This document shows positions 4,211 to 23,539 of a DNA stretch of 33,627 nt, piece by piece. The notes under the pieces were generated by a model. The model was not told the DNA's origin and did not search any database. It saw only the letters and a list, made by a program, of their open reading frames with translations. This DNA is from a virus, in IMG/VR virus record IMGVR_UViG_3300012178_000009, positions 1 to 33,627 of that record; one strand, given 5' to 3'. Made by a program: the position numbers and the translations under genes. The stretch's first letter is position 1. Each line of letters opens with the position of its first letter.

Positions 4211-5190
4211 TATATTTCTCCTCCGTCTGTTACTGTCCAAGTATGGTCCGCAACCTGTGCGGCTTTTGCGGTTGTCCCTGCTCCGCTGGTTTTGGAATTA
4301 CCTCCATGGAATGGCACTGAGCTGTTGCTGTTGTTGGCCTCAATGTTCACCCACAGGTTGTTATAGTCCGTGGTGTTGATTGTTACGTTAAGGAACATAT
4401 AAGCCCCATCAGTCAAAGCCCCCAAGACCATCCCGGACGGGAGTGAGGTTAGTGAGGTGCCGTAGAACATATAATACCCACTAGTCAAAGCCCCCAAGAC
4501 CATCCCGGACGGGAGTGAGGTTAGTGAGGTGCCGTAGAACATCGCCCTCCCATCAGTCAAAGACCCCAAGACCATCCCGGACGGGAGTGAGGTTAGTGAG
4601 GTGCCGTAGAACATATAAGACCCATCAGTCAAAGATGCTAGAGTCATATCATCAGGCAGGGAGGCTAGGGGGTTAGTGAGGTAGAACATCGTCCACCCAT
4701 CAGTCAAAGACCCCAAGACCATCCCGGACGGGAGTGAGGTTAGTGAGGTAGACCGGAACATCGCCCTCCCAAGGATCAAATGATCCAGCGTCATATCATC
4801 AGGTAAAGACGTAAGGTTCGTGCAACCCATGAACGCATTACTCTGATCCGTCCCGCTAAGCCCCGTACCCAACTGACTGATCCCCGTCAGTTTAAGTTTG
4901 TCCCCGCCATTGTTAAAATAGATCCGACTAAACACCCCCGTAATCGTCACGGTGTACGCACCGGGACTTGGATAGGTATGCGTCCAAGCCGGGTCGTTGT
5001 AGGTTGTTATGTCATCATTTGAGCCGTCTCCCCAATCGACGTTGCAGGTATAAGTGCCGTCGCTTTTAGTCGGGATGGTGATTTGGCTGTCGGTGGAAGT
5101 GCCTACGTTGTCGGTTTGCCACGACGTTTTGAAGGCGTCCAAATCCGCACCACCACCAAATTTAAATGGATCTATGAGCATGATCGACAT
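4210..5190 (-). CDS. Fibre-like protein with PKD-type segment and BspA/DUF285-like repeats
   Basis: A 326-aa protein. Residues ~20-90 carry the VDWGDGS motif (51-57) and a THTYPSPGAYTVTITG strand, the PKD-like cap typical of BspA/DUF285 surface proteins. Residues ~115-270 are leucine-rich repeats of 24 residues (one of 25) with a core LTSLPSGMVLG-LTDG--MFYGTS. The repeats are nearly identical at the DNA level. BspA-like repeats are known on bacterial surface proteins that bind host matrices; on a phage they would suit receptor binding. The start overlaps the upstream stop (TAATG). The gene lies between virion genes, so a tail fibre or head decoration is inferred. Confidence 0.78.
   Translation of the reverse strand: MSIMLIDPFKFGGGADLDAFKTSWQTDNVGTSTDSQITIPTKSDGTYTCNVDWGDGSNDDITTYNDPAWTHTYPSPGAYTVTITGVFSRIYFNNGGDKLKLTGISQLGTGLSGTDQSNAFMGCTNLTSLPDDMTLDHLILGRAMFRSTSLTSLPSGMVLGSLTDGWTMFYLTNPLASLPDDMTLASLTDGSYMFYGTSLTSLPSGMVLGSLTDGRAMFYGTSLTSLPSGMVLGALTSGYYMFYGTSLTSLPSGMVLGALTDGAYMFLNVTINTTDYNNLWVNIEANNSNSSVPFHGGNSKTSGAGTTAKAAQVADHTWTVTDGGEI
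4390..4790 (-). repeat. Tandem 72-bp repeats within the fibre-like gene
   Basis: The word agtcaaag recurs at 4411, 4483, 4555, 4627 and 4702, spacing 72, 72, 72 and 75 bp, and a diverged sixth unit follows. Units share long identical stretches (for example the segment coding for SLPSGMVLG). The 75-bp unit has one extra codon. The frame is kept, so unit number can change by recombination without breaking the protein. Confidence 0.9.
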
Positions 5191-11158: not shown

Positions 11159-11282
11159 AACCACTGATGAACACTGATTCACACTGATTCACACTGATGA
11201 AATGCGTTCTGCTTGTCGGGCAGCCTGCAAATTATTCGTTTCATTGTGCTGGATCAGTGTGTATCAGTGTTCATCAGTGGTT
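11159..11282. repeat. Long inverted repeat with CACTGAT units (MITE/REP-like)
   Basis: Arms at 11159-11187 and 11254-11282 are inverted copies of 29 bp with one mismatch. The left arm is built of short units (ACTGATTCAC repeated). Inner bases also partly pair (TGATGAAA with TTTCAT). No open frame lies in the element, which fills the 164-bp gap between two genes. It looks like a small non-autonomous insertion or a REP-type hairpin. I recall CACTGAT/CACAGAT-type repeats in environmental genomes, but that is memory only. Confidence 0.8.
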
Positions 11283-17642: not shown

Positions 17643-19640
17643 TCAATGGCATCCCCCACCCACAGTCTTGTAAAAGTCATCGCCGCCGGTGTCGTGGAGA
17701 TCCTGGGCGAAGAAGTAGCGGATCAGGTCGATAAAATCTTTGCAGGCTCCCTTCTGCCCGTCATCCCCGGTCCACACCGAAAGCGCAAAGATGCTGTTGA
17801 AACATTCCTCGGCGATGAAGAAGCGCGGGCGGTTGGTGTAACTGATCGGCTCCTTTTCGTCGTAGCTGAGACGGTCATTGATCAGGTGTACGGCGGACTG
17901 CGGATTATTGTCGGCCAGGCTCCCGGCGGGTCCCAGATGCACGGGAATAAAATCCAGTCCAATATCGTCCAGTTCGTCGATCAAGGTGAAGGTGCCCTCC
18001 GCGCTGGCGGTGGCGGTGTTGCCGGCCCGGGCATCAATGTAGCGCTCCACCACTTGTTCCCCGGTTTCAGTGTCGGGCTCCCAGTCTTTGGGATCGGGGT
18101 TTTCGGTGAGGTCGATCTCCCAGTTTTCCAATCGGGCCAGTTCCTTTTTATAATCGAGCAGATTGAATCCGAAGGGGTTTTGTGCGGGTCCCTTTTTGCC
18201 GTCTTTCTTTTGCCCGGAGACTTCCGCCCAGGGGCCGGGTTGGCCTACGCCGGGAATCACATAGTTTCCGGGCCATTCGCGGTACAGGTACACATCTCCA
18301 CCCACCACCCGGAACCAGCCGAATACGAAGTTGCGGCCGCCGGAGGGATCGCAGATCATGTAGTTGGTGCCGCCTTTGGGGATTTTGTCGCTGGGGAGGG
18401 TGTGCACCTTGGGATTGAACTTGGGAAAGCGGTTGCCGCTGGTTTTATGCGCCACGCCATAAAAGCGCTCCTGCACAAAAGCCATAGATGTACCCAGCAC
18501 CCGCTCATACACGGCGGAGGGGTTGCCGTAGGGGTTGTCGTTGGAGTGGAAAAACAGCACCGCTTTCTTGTATTCGATCTGGCCGCCGCGCATCACTCCT
18601 AGGCAGCGCATCACCCGGGGCACCTGCTTGAACGCCCGGCCTGCGGGGATCTCGGGCTGCGACCTGGTGCCTTTGATCCAGTTGTGCACGTTTTCGGGGA
18701 TGGATCGTGGACCATAAATCTTGCTCTCGGCAAAAGCTTCCGGACTTTCAAATCCAAGGGAGGCCCACTCCAGCGGCTCCCCGGTGTCATCGGGACAGGC
18801 AAAGGCCACTGCCATGCGGGTTTTATCTGCGCCATCCTGAAACATGCGGACCAGTTCCGAATATCCTTGCACCGGGGTTTGGGTGATACAGATTTTTCCT
18901 TCCCGGGTGGCAGTACGAAACTCCAGCGTCTCCAACCAGTCGGAGGGTATCAACTCGTCCGCCCAACCCCAGTCCAGCTCTCCCCCCTCAATGGTGTCCG
19001 ATTTGTCGCTGGAGTAGTATTTGAATTTGAGCACACCTTCCAGGTGGTTCACGATCTTGTTGTCTGAGTATCCCGGACCTGATTTAAAACTCATGTACTC
19101 CGGATTTCCGTCCAATATCCGGGCATTGCGTTTTGAAATGGGCATGTGGGTATTGATCAGCGGCTGCTGTTCATCTTTGCTTCGGCCTGCATCTGCATGA
19201 AAACACCACACGGTTTGTTTTTTGGCTCGGTACAGCATCTGCACCGATCTCTTGGCCGCGTACTGACTTTTACTACCCCGGTTTGCACCGCTTATCAGCA
19301 GCGTGCTGACGGGTGCATTGAATCCCAAACATTCGCGCATGGCCTTGCTCCACATCTCCCATGTCCATTCCTCCCCGAACTCGCGGTTGATCTCCGCCAG
19401 AAAACTCTGATCGTAACATTCCAACCCCAGCAGCGCATCCGCCACTTTCCAGATATGCGGCTCCCATCCGTACACCAGCGGATCCTTTTCCTCTCGGTAA
19501 ATCGCCAGGGTGCGGCGTTCAAAGTATTCGGCGGCATCTTCTTCATTTTCATCCACCTCATCGGCGGTGAGCAGGGGGATCACCGGATGAAAGTCAAAAT
19601 TCACCGGCAAAGTTTCTGCTTCTGCAACCGCGCCGGTCAT
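17643..19640 (-). CDS. terL: Terminase large subunit
   Basis: A 665-aa packaging motor. An ATPase domain has a deviant Walker A GANRGSKS (118-125), preceded by an adenine-binding-type aromatic segment, Walker B LDWGWADE (222-229) and a coupling motif CITQTP (251-256). The nuclease domain opens with MICDPSGG (first acidic residue at Asp431) and later acidic positions (RYIDARAGN; the final KDFIDLIRYFF region). It cuts concatemers and translocates DNA into the prohead with the portal. It is followed by the small unknown gene and portal. The ATG overlaps the stop of the RecA-fold gene (ATGA). No TerS gene is obvious next to it; the HTH protein at 24977 is one candidate. Confidence 0.9.
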   Translation of the reverse strand: MTGAVAEAETLPVNFDFHPVIPLLTADEVDENEEDAAEYFERRTLAIYREEKDPLVYGWEPHIWKVADALLGLECYDQSFLAEINREFGEEWTWEMWSKAMRECLGFNAPVSTLLISGANRGSKSQYAAKRSVQMLYRAKKQTVWCFHADAGRSKDEQQPLINTHMPISKRNARILDGNPEYMSFKSGPGYSDNKIVNHLEGVLKFKYYSSDKSDTIEGGELDWGWADELIPSDWLETLEFRTATREGKICITQTPVQGYSELVRMFQDGADKTRMAVAFACPDDTGEPLEWASLGFESPEAFAESKIYGPRSIPENVHNWIKGTRSQPEIPAGRAFKQVPRVMRCLGVMRGGQIEYKKAVLFFHSNDNPYGNPSAVYERVLGTSMAFVQERFYGVAHKTSGNRFPKFNPKVHTLPSDKIPKGGTNYMICDPSGGRNFVFGWFRVVGGDVYLYREWPGNYVIPGVGQPGPWAEVSGQKKDGKKGPAQNPFGFNLLDYKKELARLENWEIDLTENPDPKDWEPDTETGEQVVERYIDARAGNTATASAEGTFTLIDELDDIGLDFIPVHLGPAGSLADNNPQSAVHLINDRLSYDEKEPISYTNRPRFFIAEECFNSIFALSVWTGDDGQKGACKDFIDLIRYFFAQDLHDTGGDDFYKTVGGGCH

Positions 19641-20383
19641 TTTAAGTTAACCTCATCTTCCTCGTTTAAATCACGAAACATAAACCGATCCGCCTGAAAC
19701 CATAGCTCCAACGGAATAACTTCTCCACCACGCAAAACATCCAGATATACCTTCCATCCCCTCACGCCTCTACTGGGCCTGATGGTTCCAATCATGATCG
19801 TAGAGGCACACTCAACCTTCAATTTTGGATCCACCGGAGAATCCGCCTCCGTTCCTAAAATCGGAATCCCAAGATCAACACCCAACGCATGCAGTTGTTT
19901 TGCAGAATTGTTCGCCAAAGCCAAGTGGTCGCCCAAAAGATCATCATCCATCAAAATGCAGTTCGATAAATTATCCACACTCGCCGCCACAATCTTTTCA
20001 ATAAAAAATCTCTTGCGAATCCATTTACATACCACTTCTTGATCCCAGTCTTTTTCCATCATAAACATAGGCCAATTACAGATTTCCTTCGAAGCCTCAT
20101 AAGCCTTTTTTAACTCATCCTTTGTTGCCTTCCCTGTATTTAAATTGCTAAGCGCAACATCCGAATGCCGTGAGACATCTCGGTTTAATACATTGGACAT
20201 CGTCATATTCAGACACGCCCTGGCTGTGGCGACACCACGCCCAGAGATCGCCGTCATGATTGTCCCTTCCAAACTGGATTTACCTGAACTGCACGGCCCC
20301 GCCACAACATGAAGGCCCGGCTCCAATCCTCCACCCAGTGCCACATCCAAAGATTCTATTCCGGTTTTTATTCTTGGTTTCAT
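19637..20383 (-). CDS. RecA-fold ATPase, DnaB/KaiC-like (248 aa)
   Basis: The N-terminus has TGIESLDVALGGGLEPGLHVVAG, typical of RecA/DnaB/KaiC-type ATPases, then Walker A GPCSSGKSS (29-37). A Walker B-like strand follows at about 131-139 (IVAASVDNLS), and later a sensor-like strand and basic residues (GTIRPSRGVRG). It has no primase domain. It follows the primase-helicase directly and precedes terminase, so it may be a second helicase-type motor, a loader-like accessory or a recombination ATPase. The nearest named family (RepA-like hexameric helicase or AAA_25) cannot be decided without a search. Confidence 0.72.
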   Translation of the reverse strand: MKPRIKTGIESLDVALGGGLEPGLHVVAGPCSSGKSSLEGTIMTAISGRGVATARACLNMTMSNVLNRDVSRHSDVALSNLNTGKATKDELKKAYEASKEICNWPMFMMEKDWDQEVVCKWIRKRFFIEKIVAASVDNLSNCILMDDDLLGDHLALANNSAKQLHALGVDLGIPILGTEADSPVDPKLKVECASTIMIGTIRPSRGVRGWKVYLDVLRGGEVIPLELWFQADRFMFRDLNEEDEVNLK

Positions 20384-20395
20384 AATTCAGCTGCA

Positions 20396-22336
20396 TCATT
20401 TATTTTGTTCAGACACATCCACATATACTTTCGGTTGATCCGATTCCTTGTTCATAAATTGGAAAGTCTCAGGATCAAAATACAAGTACTTCCCTGGTTC
20501 CTCCCCTGTCTCACGTTGCTTTTGAATTTGAATCTTCGCATCCCCCACATGCAAAAACGGTTTTTCCATTTTATCCGCTTGATCAAATTCCCCACGAACA
20601 CGTAACGAACGCGCCTCTGCCAATTTTTGCTCCTTTTCCTGATTCCTCCACACCGAAATCACGCTATCCGCAATGTTCGGAATCCCACTCGTACCACTGA
20701 TGTCATACTTCAACGGCTCCTTCTTTTCAGCCGGACGGTTCATCGTCGGTTTCTTCGAGTGGCACACCATATGCATCGTCACATTATGCCTATGCGCAAA
20801 TGCTTTAAACAACTTGCATACCTCAAGTTGCCCCGCGTAATCCTCCAGCCCCACATCCGAAAGCATCATCAAGCTATCCACCACAAAATGCTGTGTGCCC
20901 CACTTCCGATACGCATACTCAAACGCCTCCAGCAATTGGCGGCCGTCCGTTTCCCCTACCTTGTCATACACGATAAAATACTGATCAAACCAAGCCAAAA
21001 CCTTTTGCACCTGCCGGGCATGTTCCGGTTTGTTTTTAGCCATCGCCTGGCGGGCCATATTCCGAAACGTCTTACGGGCCGGAATCTCCAGCGAAGCCAC
21101 GCAAATCTTTTTCCCATGATACGCAAAATCCACCATGCACTGATTTTGCATCATCGTTTTCCCATGACCATTGTAGCCATGCCACACAATGAATTCACCC
21201 GGTCGAAACGCAAACGGTAAATTCCAAGGCAAAGGATCTCCCTTCGGTCTGTCGCTCTCCTCCGGATAAAACTCCCACCAAATATCCTGGGCAAATTCAC
21301 TCGGTTTCTTCAGTTCCGAAGGCGTAAAATCCCGTGCCTCACACACCAACCTGTCCAACGGCACGCCAGCACACAAGGCCTCATTCGCATCCTTCACCCC
21401 CTCCGGCCATAATACTTCTTTACACCGCGCATAGCCCAACCTTGGCAACAACTGATCCTTCGCCTTTTGGCCGGGTTCATCCCCGTCCAACGCCAGCACG
21501 ATATCCGTAAACCGCTCCAGCCAATCATGGTCATGCTCTAACCACGCATCATGCGGGCTCTCCCGCCCCTCCTGCACCGCTTGGGCTCCCTCCGGTAAAC
21601 TCACTCCCGTGAGTGCTCCGCCCTGCGTCAGGGCCATCGCATCCAGCTCCCCCTCCGTCAATCCAATCATCCCCGCCGTATCCGCCACCGCCTGCTGACC
21701 AAACAGCAATTTCGGAGCACCAAACGCATATTCTTCCGCATCCCGCATACTCGGTTTCTGAAACGTATTTTTTTTAGCCACAATATCCCGATATTTCAAC
21801 CGCACCAGATTTCCCTGTGCATCAAAAAACGGAAACACCACCCAGTTGATCGGGTCAGGCCCCTGCTTCGAAAGCGGAAACCGAGCCTCCCCCAGCCGAT
21901 ACAGCCGGATCACCCCCTCCGAAAGTCCCCGCGTTTTTGTCAGCCAATTCCAAACCGGAGATCCTTCCACCACCTCCGCATAGCTCAGACTTTTCAATTT
22001 CGTCGTATCCACCTTTTTCGCGGGGGTCGCCATTCTCCTTGGCAGCGTATCCGCCACCCCCAGCCAATCCTTCGCCTCCCGGATCGCCTCTTTAAACTCC
22101 AGGCCATGCCGCTTCAGCCACAGCTCCAGCAGATTGCTTCCAGCCTCCCCCGTAGCAAAATCCTTCCACACCCCCACCTTCGATCCAAGCGTCCCCACCA
22201 CCAAGCTCTCGCCCGCCTCCCCCGCCAGATTTCCAATCTTAAATTCTGGACCCTGCTGCTTGCCAGCTGGAAACAAATACGCACAGCACTCCGCCGCCCG
22301 ATCATTCAACAATTGTTTTACTTCCGAAGCATCCAT
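20396..22336 (-). CDS. Bifunctional primase-helicase (TOPRIM + DnaB-type)
   Basis: A 646-aa protein from the start at 22336 (MDASEVKQ), chosen because it overlaps the upstream stop in TAATG. An N-terminal domain (GVWKDFATGEAGSNLLEL) is of the type seen in phage primase-helicases but lacks a Cys zinc site. A TOPRIM domain has GLTEGELDA (acid at ~228-232) and LALDGDEPG (~284-289), then KDANEAL. The DnaB-type helicase domain has Walker A GYNGHGKT (~387-394), Walker B HFVVDSLMM, and a late motif SGTSGIPNIADSVISVWR. It resembles T7 gp4. It primes and unwinds at the fork. Upstream is the initiator gene with iterons, which makes this the replication block. Confidence 0.88.
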   Translation of the reverse strand: MDASEVKQLLNDRAAECCAYLFPAGKQQGPEFKIGNLAGEAGESLVVGTLGSKVGVWKDFATGEAGSNLLELWLKRHGLEFKEAIREAKDWLGVADTLPRRMATPAKKVDTTKLKSLSYAEVVEGSPVWNWLTKTRGLSEGVIRLYRLGEARFPLSKQGPDPINWVVFPFFDAQGNLVRLKYRDIVAKKNTFQKPSMRDAEEYAFGAPKLLFGQQAVADTAGMIGLTEGELDAMALTQGGALTGVSLPEGAQAVQEGRESPHDAWLEHDHDWLERFTDIVLALDGDEPGQKAKDQLLPRLGYARCKEVLWPEGVKDANEALCAGVPLDRLVCEARDFTPSELKKPSEFAQDIWWEFYPEESDRPKGDPLPWNLPFAFRPGEFIVWHGYNGHGKTMMQNQCMVDFAYHGKKICVASLEIPARKTFRNMARQAMAKNKPEHARQVQKVLAWFDQYFIVYDKVGETDGRQLLEAFEYAYRKWGTQHFVVDSLMMLSDVGLEDYAGQLEVCKLFKAFAHRHNVTMHMVCHSKKPTMNRPAEKKEPLKYDISGTSGIPNIADSVISVWRNQEKEQKLAEARSLRVRGEFDQADKMEKPFLHVGDAKIQIQKQRETGEEPGKYLYFDPETFQFMNKESDQPKVYVDVSEQNK

Positions 22337-23202
22337 TATTTTATCAACCCCTTTTCTTTCCAATATTTTTCATTCGCTGCGTTATACGCCTCCGCGTCCA
22401 CCTCTGACGTGTTCTGCTCGCCATCCGCCGCGCCACTCCAACCGCCGCCGCTTTTTTTATTTTTTCCGATTTCCCCCACATAAAAATCAGCATTGCTCAT
22501 GTACTTACGCAACATCCCCAGTGGATTCGGCCATGGGTCAACCATGCTCGCTGCATCTCCCGCAAACTGAGAAACCGCCTCCTCACGGTAAATCTTCGGA
22601 CACTTACGGATTTCCATCCCCGCCGCATCTGCCCGAAGCATCCAGTCATCACGAGCCTCCACCGCCTGGATCGCCAAACCTCCCAATTCCGAATCAGGGT
22701 ACACCCCAGAATGTGTGTGTGACCCCCCCACACACTTCTTCCCTTCTTCCCTTCTTAACTTATTATCTTTCTTAGTTAGTCGTCGCCCGTCCGTCGGTGG
22801 TCCGTCGGGGGTCCGTCGCCCGTCCGTCGGTGGTCCGTCGTTCTGTCCGTCGTTCTGTCCGTCGTTCTGTCCGTCATTTTTGGGAGGGTCAGAAACGTAA
22901 GCTACTGTATCATATAAGGTTGCAACTGTTCCACGTCTGTCGCCTTGAAAGTCACACGCTCCTACCTTCTGTAAGTCGCTTTTTGCAGTGCGATAACGCC
23001 TTTCGGTCCACTTCCATGCAGAAACGTCCGAAAAGCCCAAAACCGCCTGTCGTTTTTCAAGGTTCAAGGGGTTCCAGTCATCATTGTACCGTGCTCGATC
23101 CTGAATCAAAAGCAACAGTCTGAGAGCGTCCGGCTTCTCATGAATGAGCCAGCGTAAACGCTCCCCGCGCCAAGTCCTAAAGAATCCTTCTTTTTCAGCC
23201 AT
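22336..23202 (-). CDS. Replication initiator, lambda O-like with iteron-bearing linker (288 aa)
   Basis: The N-terminal ~110 residues read as a winged-helix DNA-binding domain (LLLLIQDRARYNDDWN, FSDVSAWKWTERRYRTAKSDLQKVG). A flexible linker (108-141) made of NDGQ and PPTDGRR units follows, then a C-terminal helicase/loader-interacting part. The linker DNA contains eight iterons (see the origin feature). In lambda, protein O carries ori inside its gene; the same layout is seen here with the primase-helicase as next gene. It is likely to bind the iterons and recruit the helicase. Overlaps both neighbours. Confidence 0.7.
   Translation of the reverse strand: MAEKEGFFRTWRGERLRWLIHEKPDALRLLLLIQDRARYNDDWNPLNLEKRQAVLGFSDVSAWKWTERRYRTAKSDLQKVGACDFQGDRRGTVATLYDTVAYVSDPPKNDGQNDGQNDGQNDGPPTDGRRTPDGPPTDGRRLTKKDNKLRREEGKKCVGGSHTHSGVYPDSELGGLAIQAVEARDDWMLRADAAGMEIRKCPKIYREEAVSQFAGDAASMVDPWPNPLGMLRKYMSNADFYVGEIGKNKKSGGGWSGAADGEQNTSEVDAEAYNAANEKYWKEKGLIK
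22745..22880. other. Candidate replication origin: eight iterons beside an AT-rich segment
   Basis: GTCCGTC recurs at 22789, 22800, 22811, 22822, 22833, 22845, 22857 and 22869. The first five are 11 bp apart, the last three intervals are 12 bp. Next to it (22755-22780) is an AT-rich tract (ttaacttattatctttcttag). An 11-bp unit shifts the frame, so the repeats cannot be kept for the peptide alone. This resembles the lambda ori layout of iterons plus AT-rich region inside O. Confidence 0.68.
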
Positions 23203-23539
23203 GGACAGCCTCCATGGTAAACAGATGGCGCGTTTTTTCTGTTAGGCTGATGATCTCTTCATCATCGATTTCGATGTATCCCTCGTTTTCCAACTGAACG
23301 AGAGCGGAATCCGCTGTCCCTCCGTATTGATATTCCGACTCCCCATAGAGATCCAGATGGTCATGTTTATGACTGCTGGAGGCCCCACAGGCCTCCTTTG
23401 CCGCCATAAGCAGTAGCATCATGTATTTCCGTTTCTCGTGAGAGAACGTGCCCATTGCCTCGCTGACTAGCCAGCCAGCAGGAACCTGTAGAATAGGGCC
23501 TTTCGGCCCTATGTTGTTTGGATTAGCACGTGCAATCAT
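23195..23539 (-). CDS. Small unknown protein, possible winged helix (114 aa)
   Basis: A 114-aa protein. Residues 35-65 (SHEKRKYMMLLLMAAKEACGAS) and 75-110 (SALVQLENEGYIEIDDEEIISLTEKTRHLFTME) have helix-helix-wing spacing. It starts at the overlap with the RHH-like gene (ATGA) and overlaps the initiator gene by 8 bases. It may regulate or assist initiation. No family recognised. Confidence 0.58.
   Translation of the reverse strand: MIARANPNNIGPKGPILQVPAGWLVSEAMGTFSHEKRKYMMLLLMAAKEACGASSSHKHDHLDLYGESEYQYGGTADSALVQLENEGYIEIDDEEIISLTEKTRHLFTMEAVHG

Follow-up and report, generated by a model that had tools for sequence, protein, structure and literature searches.

The gene of a phage replication initiator carries, in the stretch that encodes the linker behind its DNA-binding domain, a row of nine (C/T)GAC cores placed 11 or 12 bp apart and followed, a fixed step on, by an A-rich tract. 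Selection on this array at the DNA level is strongly supported, and within the initiator family the pitch is kept while the letters of the repeat change together with the recognition helix of the protein. We infer that the array is very probably a replication origin embedded in its initiator's own gene, where each helical turn would hold about one initiator molecule, with a presumed unwinding tract alongside. The array lies in a viral DNA of 33,627 nucleotides (the window, i.e., the whole stretch that was analysed), which has the following relevant features.

22336..23202, minus strand: initiator gene P0001, 288 aa, supported by the ORF and by its N-domain profile, which matches that of the initiator family
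22897..23202, minus strand: predicted winged-helix DNA-binding domain, P0001 codons 1-102 (AlphaFold2 model; PDB comparison)
22975..23010, minus strand: recognition-helix codons 65-76 (WTERRYRTAKSD), placed by the family alignment, the model helix at 67-80 and covariation
22782..22876, minus strand: iteron array of nine (C/T)GAC cores within the linker-coding DNA (repeat and spacing analysis, comparison with the nearest relative, L003)
22837..22876, minus strand: 12-bp-phased part of the array, four cores including the shared one, in codon frame (core spacing; same 12,12,12 in L003)
22782..22840, minus strand: 11-bp-phased part of the array, six cores (core spacing; lag-11 recoding test)
22735..22780, minus strand: presumed unwinding element, an A-rich tract that follows the array, 3' on the coding strand (A+T content; conserved with L003; fixed step in the family)
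20396..22363, minus strand: primase-helicase adjoining the initiator (phrog_239, E 5.1e-91; Pfam DnaB_C and Toprim_2)
19637..20383, minus strand: second DnaB_C-like protein, downstream (Pfam DnaB_C, E 4.4e-12)

The original prediction described eight copies of GTCCGTC, five of them 11 bp apart and then 12 bp apart, next to an AT-rich tract and within an initiator gene that has a primase-helicase as neighbour. All of this is confirmed: the copies start at 22789, 22800, 22811, 22822 and 22833 and then at 22845, 22857 and 22869, spanning 22789-22875 with spacings of 11,11,11,11,12,12,12. Only the proposed start of the region, 22745, was misplaced, as it falls in the AT-rich tract outside the repeats. 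GTCCGTC is present 12 times in the whole window, compared to a mean of 3.75 and a maximum of 9 in 100 dinucleotide shuffles. While the copies are real, a better unit is GTCG on the plus strand (CGAC on the coding strand), with nine cores at 22782, 22793, 22804, 22815, 22826, 22837, 22849, 22861 and 22873 (the last being GTCA) that are separated by five steps of 11 bp and then three of 12 bp; the unit can be described as CGAC-N7. In the direction of the gene, the cores are spaced 12,12,12,11,11,11,11,11 and are followed by the A-rich tract, the whole array lying in the coding region between the DNA-binding domain and the C-terminus. The A+T content is 79% for the tract (22757-22780) and 29% for the array, and the final core is approximately 12 bp from the A-rich motif. 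A search of 22400-23400 revealed no inverted repeats, and the window has no second array with a CGAC core. GC skew, which had been suggested as a check on the origin, falls steadily across the window and does not mark one. A palindrome-like sequence, TGTGTGTGTGACCCCCCCACACAC, is present at 22712-22735 in the same gene, just past the A-rich tract, and is absent in L003.

In the 11-bp part, the reading frame changes with each step, and the claim that the peptide cannot explain this period was borne out by synonymous recoding. With the peptide of the P0001 linker kept, the observed lag-11 self-similarity was reached in 0/2000 recodings, and that at lag 12, which is in frame, in 14/2000. Eight GACGGAC copies were obtained in 2/100,000 recodings when codons were drawn from the gene's own, array included. 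The predicted DNA-level selection is likewise supported by L003 (a second contig, L004, carries the same region), the N-domain of which is 78% identical to that of the window. The core spacing in L003 is identical (12,12,12,11,11,11,11,11), and the GAC letters of the nine cores are conserved at 27/27 positions, compared to 29/70 of the remaining array letters and 25/44 residues of the linker peptide. The letter following the core is G in 9/9 window cores and A in 8/9 L003 cores, a concerted change, and the recognition helices differ as well (WTERRYRT in the window, WTIRRYRT in L003). Beyond the A-rich tract the two proteins diverge, while domain, array and tract stay together; the gene next to the L003 initiator encodes a DnaB-like helicase (judged by eye from sequence), compared to a primase-helicase in the window. 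Since both the C-terminus and the helicase differ, domain, array and tract appear to form one exchangeable block.

Searches of Pfam and PHROG families gave no direct match for P0001. However, a profile of its N-domain, built from the window, L003 and Vibrio phage 1.177, matches that of a phage initiator family (hhalign probability 97.9, E 5.9e-13). All 17 members of the family profile match the PHROG "DnaD-like helicase loader" annotation (phrog_2514/186/7498), and 12/17 match a "replication initiation O-like" family; L005 matches phrog_2514, whereas P0001 itself does not. The AlphaFold2 model of P0001 is confident for a winged helix at about residues 10-98 (mean pLDDT of 89-96 for residues 21-100) and has the helix-helix-strand-strand order of a wHTH domain. 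By contrast, the linker over the array has low confidence and is predicted to be disordered, and the C-terminus is modelled poorly. A sequence search against solved structures yielded no close relative, and Foldseek with the model gave no match at E < 0.001; the leading fold matches include RepA_N structures, which are level with other winged helices (MarR/ArsR).

To avoid sampling on the repeat itself, relatives were fetched by homology. All 40 genome loci were used, and of 243 viral loci the best 80; the seed sequences came from array scans, which introduces a mild bias. For all 120 genes, self-similarity at lags 5-24 was computed over the 210 nt that follow the N-domain and compared to that in 200 synonymous recodings. 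Lag 11 is the strongest in 70 genes and lag 22 in 13, and lag 11 was not reached by any recoding in 74/120, compared to 0/120 for lags 10 and 13. Homologous initiators thus retain repeats at the DNA level, and the outcome that would have refuted the original prediction, i.e., linkers that keep the amino acids without the 11/12-bp period, is the reverse of what relatives show. After thinning to <80% identity, lag 11 is significant in 43/73 relatives and is missing as a significant lag in the other 30/73; among other ORFs of the same loci, which served as control, it was found in 0/245. Array copy number differs among relatives, and the titles of the genome-locus records name Bacteroidales, Prevotella, Clostridia, Paenibacillus, Enterococcus, Pseudovibrio and others (as labelled).

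The same test was applied to 22 genes of named phages picked for host spread among the matches listed, the linkers of which had not been seen when the choice was made, except for that of Vibrio phage 1.177. Lag 11 is the strongest in 17/22, and in 12 of these 17 it was unreached in 300 recodings: Vibrio phages 1.177 and 1.085, Staphylococcus phages PVL and SP5, Listeria phage 188, Bacillus phage Pookie, Cellulophaga phage phi18:3, Lactobacillus phage Lc-Nu, Pseudomonas phage Orisa01, ST64T, HK633 and CobraSix. For HK022 and HK620, lag 11 is on top but was reached in 6/300 recodings. The exceptions are Anoxybacillus phage A403 (22 bp), Pseudoalteromonas phage SL25 and Vibrio phage 1.189 (23 bp), Dulem virus 31 (33 bp strongest, 11 bp second) and Brevibacillus phage Osiris, which has an in-frame 12-bp period only. 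In the GenBank record of HK620, a rep_origin feature in gene O coincides with two three-copy 11-bp arrays. The 23-bp repeats, which span two turns and break the frame, occur in the linkers of Pseudoalteromonas phage SL25, Vibrio phage 1.189 and the RepA_N rep gene of pUSA03 (L509, L522, L526:101-1060). Dulem virus 31 (L523, PP511318.1) is filed as a Microvirus, yet has 35.8 kb and a replisome organizer gene, and its taxonomy label looks wrong.

As a control for the pitch, we asked which genes underlie arrays of each spacing. Raw array counts had failed in this role, because the 10- and 12-bp CGAC arrays and the 11-bp CAGC arrays gave only "at least" counts, as did the 11-bp CGAC arrays; the genes under the arrays were therefore compared instead, the 10-, 11- and 12-bp sets being samples and not totals. 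Among the matches listed, ORFs of the initiator family lie under 39/121 of the 11-bp CGAC arrays, 0/123 of the 10-bp arrays and 1/122 of the 12-bp arrays; for 13 bp, the complete count is 0/25. These numbers lend support to the idea of helical phasing, and in 38 of the 39 family ORFs, again among the matches listed, CGAC is on the coding strand. The tetramer CAGC was dropped as a composition control since it also picks up the initiator family (20/124 of the 11-bp arrays, among the matches listed). This arises because cores such as AACCAGC contain CAGC, so that the CAGC result supports the pitch rather than the tetramer. Outside the family profile, at least 34 of the 11-bp CGAC matches are in ORFs of at least 200 aa, and 16 such ORFs were scanned, of which 12 hit PHROGs of the replication-initiation, primosomal or DnaD-like kind. 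Of at least 43 ORFs of this length in the 10-bp set, 10 were scanned and 2 are initiators. Arrays of 10-bp CGAC repeats are present in initiators of other PHROG families at L176:7395-8312 and L179:1552-2334. Some 11-bp CGAC arrays (e.g., GCGACACCCTT repeated) have no long ORF across them and are apparently located outside genes; these are at L020:2012-2059 and in L017, L032, L049, L084, L087 and L109.

Within the family, the letters of the repeat change jointly with the recognition helix. For 92 genes with clear arrays, repeat similarity tracks recognition-helix identity after correction for the rest of the domain, with a partial rank correlation of 0.20 that was matched in 0/1000 permutations. 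When 88 windows were slid along the domain, the top twelve were all on the recognition helix or the wing, and the 11-residue helix window chosen beforehand ranked 13 of 88. To assign residues to bases, the register was set without the repeat, using an A-rich motif (AAGAAT, AAAGAA and similar) as anchor; this was usable in 130/196 genes, with 66 left out, and 88 genes remained after thinning. Among these, Arg at helix residue 4 goes with G in 17, A in 5 and C in 2 genes, Gln with A in 26, T in 3, C in 1 and G in 0, and Lys with G in 8/8. For Arg/Gln by G/A, the Fisher p-value is 6e-9, not corrected for kinship. The homology-sampled genes alone give G 13, A 3 and C 2 for Arg, and A 22, T 3 and C 1 for Gln. 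The seven Arg exceptions look misanchored, given that CGAC repeats are visible in their arrays, but they are still counted as exceptions. Reading of G by Arg and of A by Gln corresponds to classical major-groove preferences.

Individual pairs illustrate the switch. L386 (LSVQQVRT, TAAC) and L385 (LSVRQVRT, CGAC) are 74% identical outside the helix, and L466 (Gln, TAAC) and L388 (Arg, CGAC) are 83% identical. With a tree from which the helix columns were excluded, the residue-4 rule is followed in 15 of 17 path-disjoint pairs and opposed in none, the other 2 being unchanged (p 6e-5). For Glu or Asp at residue 3 with C, 6 pairs agree, 0 oppose and 5 are unchanged (p 0.03), and two crossed controls gave no signal. 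The tree is weak, with well-supported branches carrying only 2/17 pairs. In P0001, the residues at recognition-helix positions 3 and 4, to which the proposed code applies, are E67 and R68. The window and L003 are outside the anchored set; read from the sequence, the window fits the residue-4 rule (R68 with CGAC) and fails the residue-3 rule of Glu with C (E67 with CGACG). In the anchored genes, the final core precedes the A-rich motif by a fixed step of 11 bp. Of the 88 genes, 73 have the A-rich tract in codon frame 0, 7 in frame 1 and 8 in frame 2, a distribution that hints at a DNA-level constraint without proving it. A DnaA-trio-like reading of the tract was rejected, since by eye the phase of the middle A is lost when the codon frame shifts.

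In the mechanism that we propose, for which no binding or replication data exist for this phage, the N-terminal winged helix of P0001 (residues about 5-100) would read a CGAC-type core once per helical turn in the linker-coding DNA. As 11 bp is approximately one turn of B-DNA, monomers would stack head to tail, forming a row of initiator molecules aligned on one DNA face. The array ends at a fixed step from the A-rich tract, so that the bound row could strain and open the tract, and the C-terminal part may bring in the neighbouring primase-helicase; both of these steps are modelled on lambda, SPP1 and RepA_N replicons.

In-gene or iteron origins have been described for RepA_N plasmids, SPP1, PLE and lambda (PMC5703833, PMC6316719, PMC7145576, PMC3349717), and in-gene 11-bp repeats as a likely origin are already known from phage L, where gene 18 has six imprecise copies (PMC8022706). 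The original prediction of a lambda-like origin holds insofar as repeats lie within the initiator gene beside an AT-rich tract, as they do in origins of the lambda O/P22 gp18 kind; in lambda gene O, the iterons are followed by an AT-rich part. It does not hold for the units: lambda has four iterons of approximately 20 bp (PMC8022706), whereas the window has nine one-turn units of 11/12 bp without inverted repeats, and its origin function remains inferred. The closest described case is instead gene 18 of phage L/ST64T, which together with gene O of HK022 and HK620 encodes a lambda-O-like initiator with in-gene 11-bp repeats. The link between this group and the window is indirect, via the family profile (tblastn E 8e-5 and 6e-6 for a family member versus the HK022/ST64T N-domains). 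The phage L/HK022 group has two three-repeat sets with a spacer, cores such as TGTCC and TACCAG, and a DnaB-like helicase downstream, whereas the window has a single run, CGAC cores and a primase-helicase. In P22 and L, the replication genes are exchangeable as a block but not singly (PMC8022706). RepA_N plasmids such as pSK41 share with the window a winged-helix N-domain and Rep boxes in linker-coding DNA (PMC5703833), but their iterons are semi-palindromic and of about two turns, and the pUSA03 rep gene has 23-bp repeats. We considered pUSA03 as a natural hybrid with a phage-type domain and rejected this, given the 23-bp repeats and the absence of a match between its Rep, the only RepA_N Rep tested, and the family profile. 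SPP1 gene 38 (oriL) resembles the window in having direct repeats and an AT-rich tract within the initiator gene, and SPP1 has a second origin (PMC6316719).

Could the repeats merely follow a repetitive, flexible linker peptide? The linker is indeed predicted to be disordered, the 12-bp part is in frame and encodes NDGQ repeats, and its periodicity is within reach of recoding (14/2000). Yet the 11-bp part breaks the codon frame, the spacing is kept in relatives although the peptides change, and lags 11 and 22 dominate among the 120 relatives; for the 11-bp part, the recoding tests refute a protein-level origin of the repeats, and overall we regard this explanation as highly improbable. We give equally little credence to the idea that the array is a minisatellite expanded by slippage, without selection, in a linker that tolerates it. 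Slippage does expand tandem arrays, and copy number differs among relatives, but it gives no reason why spacings of 10, 12 and 13 bp should be avoided in the initiator family, or why distant relatives should share a pitch with other letters. Moreover, the array is located just past the same domain and ends at a fixed step from the A-rich tract, and its letters change along with the recognition helix.

Harder to dismiss, if still unlikely, is that replication starts elsewhere and that the array, though read by the initiator, serves mainly in incompatibility or copy control or as the operator of the initiator gene. The covariation points to binding and origin firing has not been shown, and the second origin of SPP1 lies outside the initiator gene (PMC6316719). 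However, the site lies in the middle of the gene and has an A-rich tract next to it, an arrangement shared with phage L, HK620, SPP1 oriL and RepA_N plasmids, and the lack of a second CGAC-core array in the window also speaks against this possibility.

With an origin in the initiator gene as the preferred reading for the window, we also lean, with clearly less assurance, towards a single origin design across this large family of phage initiators, in which 11-bp sites in the linker-coding DNA end one unit before an A-rich tract and follow a residue-to-base code (Arg/Lys with G and Gln with A at helix position 4, Glu with C at position 3). The carriers would be phages or prophages of Bacteroidota, Firmicutes and Proteobacteria. 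As reader and array are on one stretch of DNA, specificity could shift within one lineage without a partner in trans, and, if the design is real, domain and array could be swapped as a cassette between differing helicase systems. Most phage origins are unmapped; should the rule hold, the origins of many temperate and lytic phages could be read from the genome at base-pair resolution, and one or two helix residues would suffice to predict the specificity of an initiator. Natural pairs differing in the helix (Gln/Arg) and in the repeats (A/G) would then provide ready material for studying DNA opening by an initiator row and the evolution of origin specificity. We found no published description of a family-wide 11-bp pitch or residue-to-base code, but subscription journals were mostly not covered, making this weak evidence of novelty.

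Other repeats were noted in the window. Imperfect tandem repeats of 72 and 147 bp are present at 4393-4803, and two 10-bp tandem repeats at 11162-11201 and 11253-11279, CACTGATGAA and ATCAGTGTGC, are partly complementary to each other.
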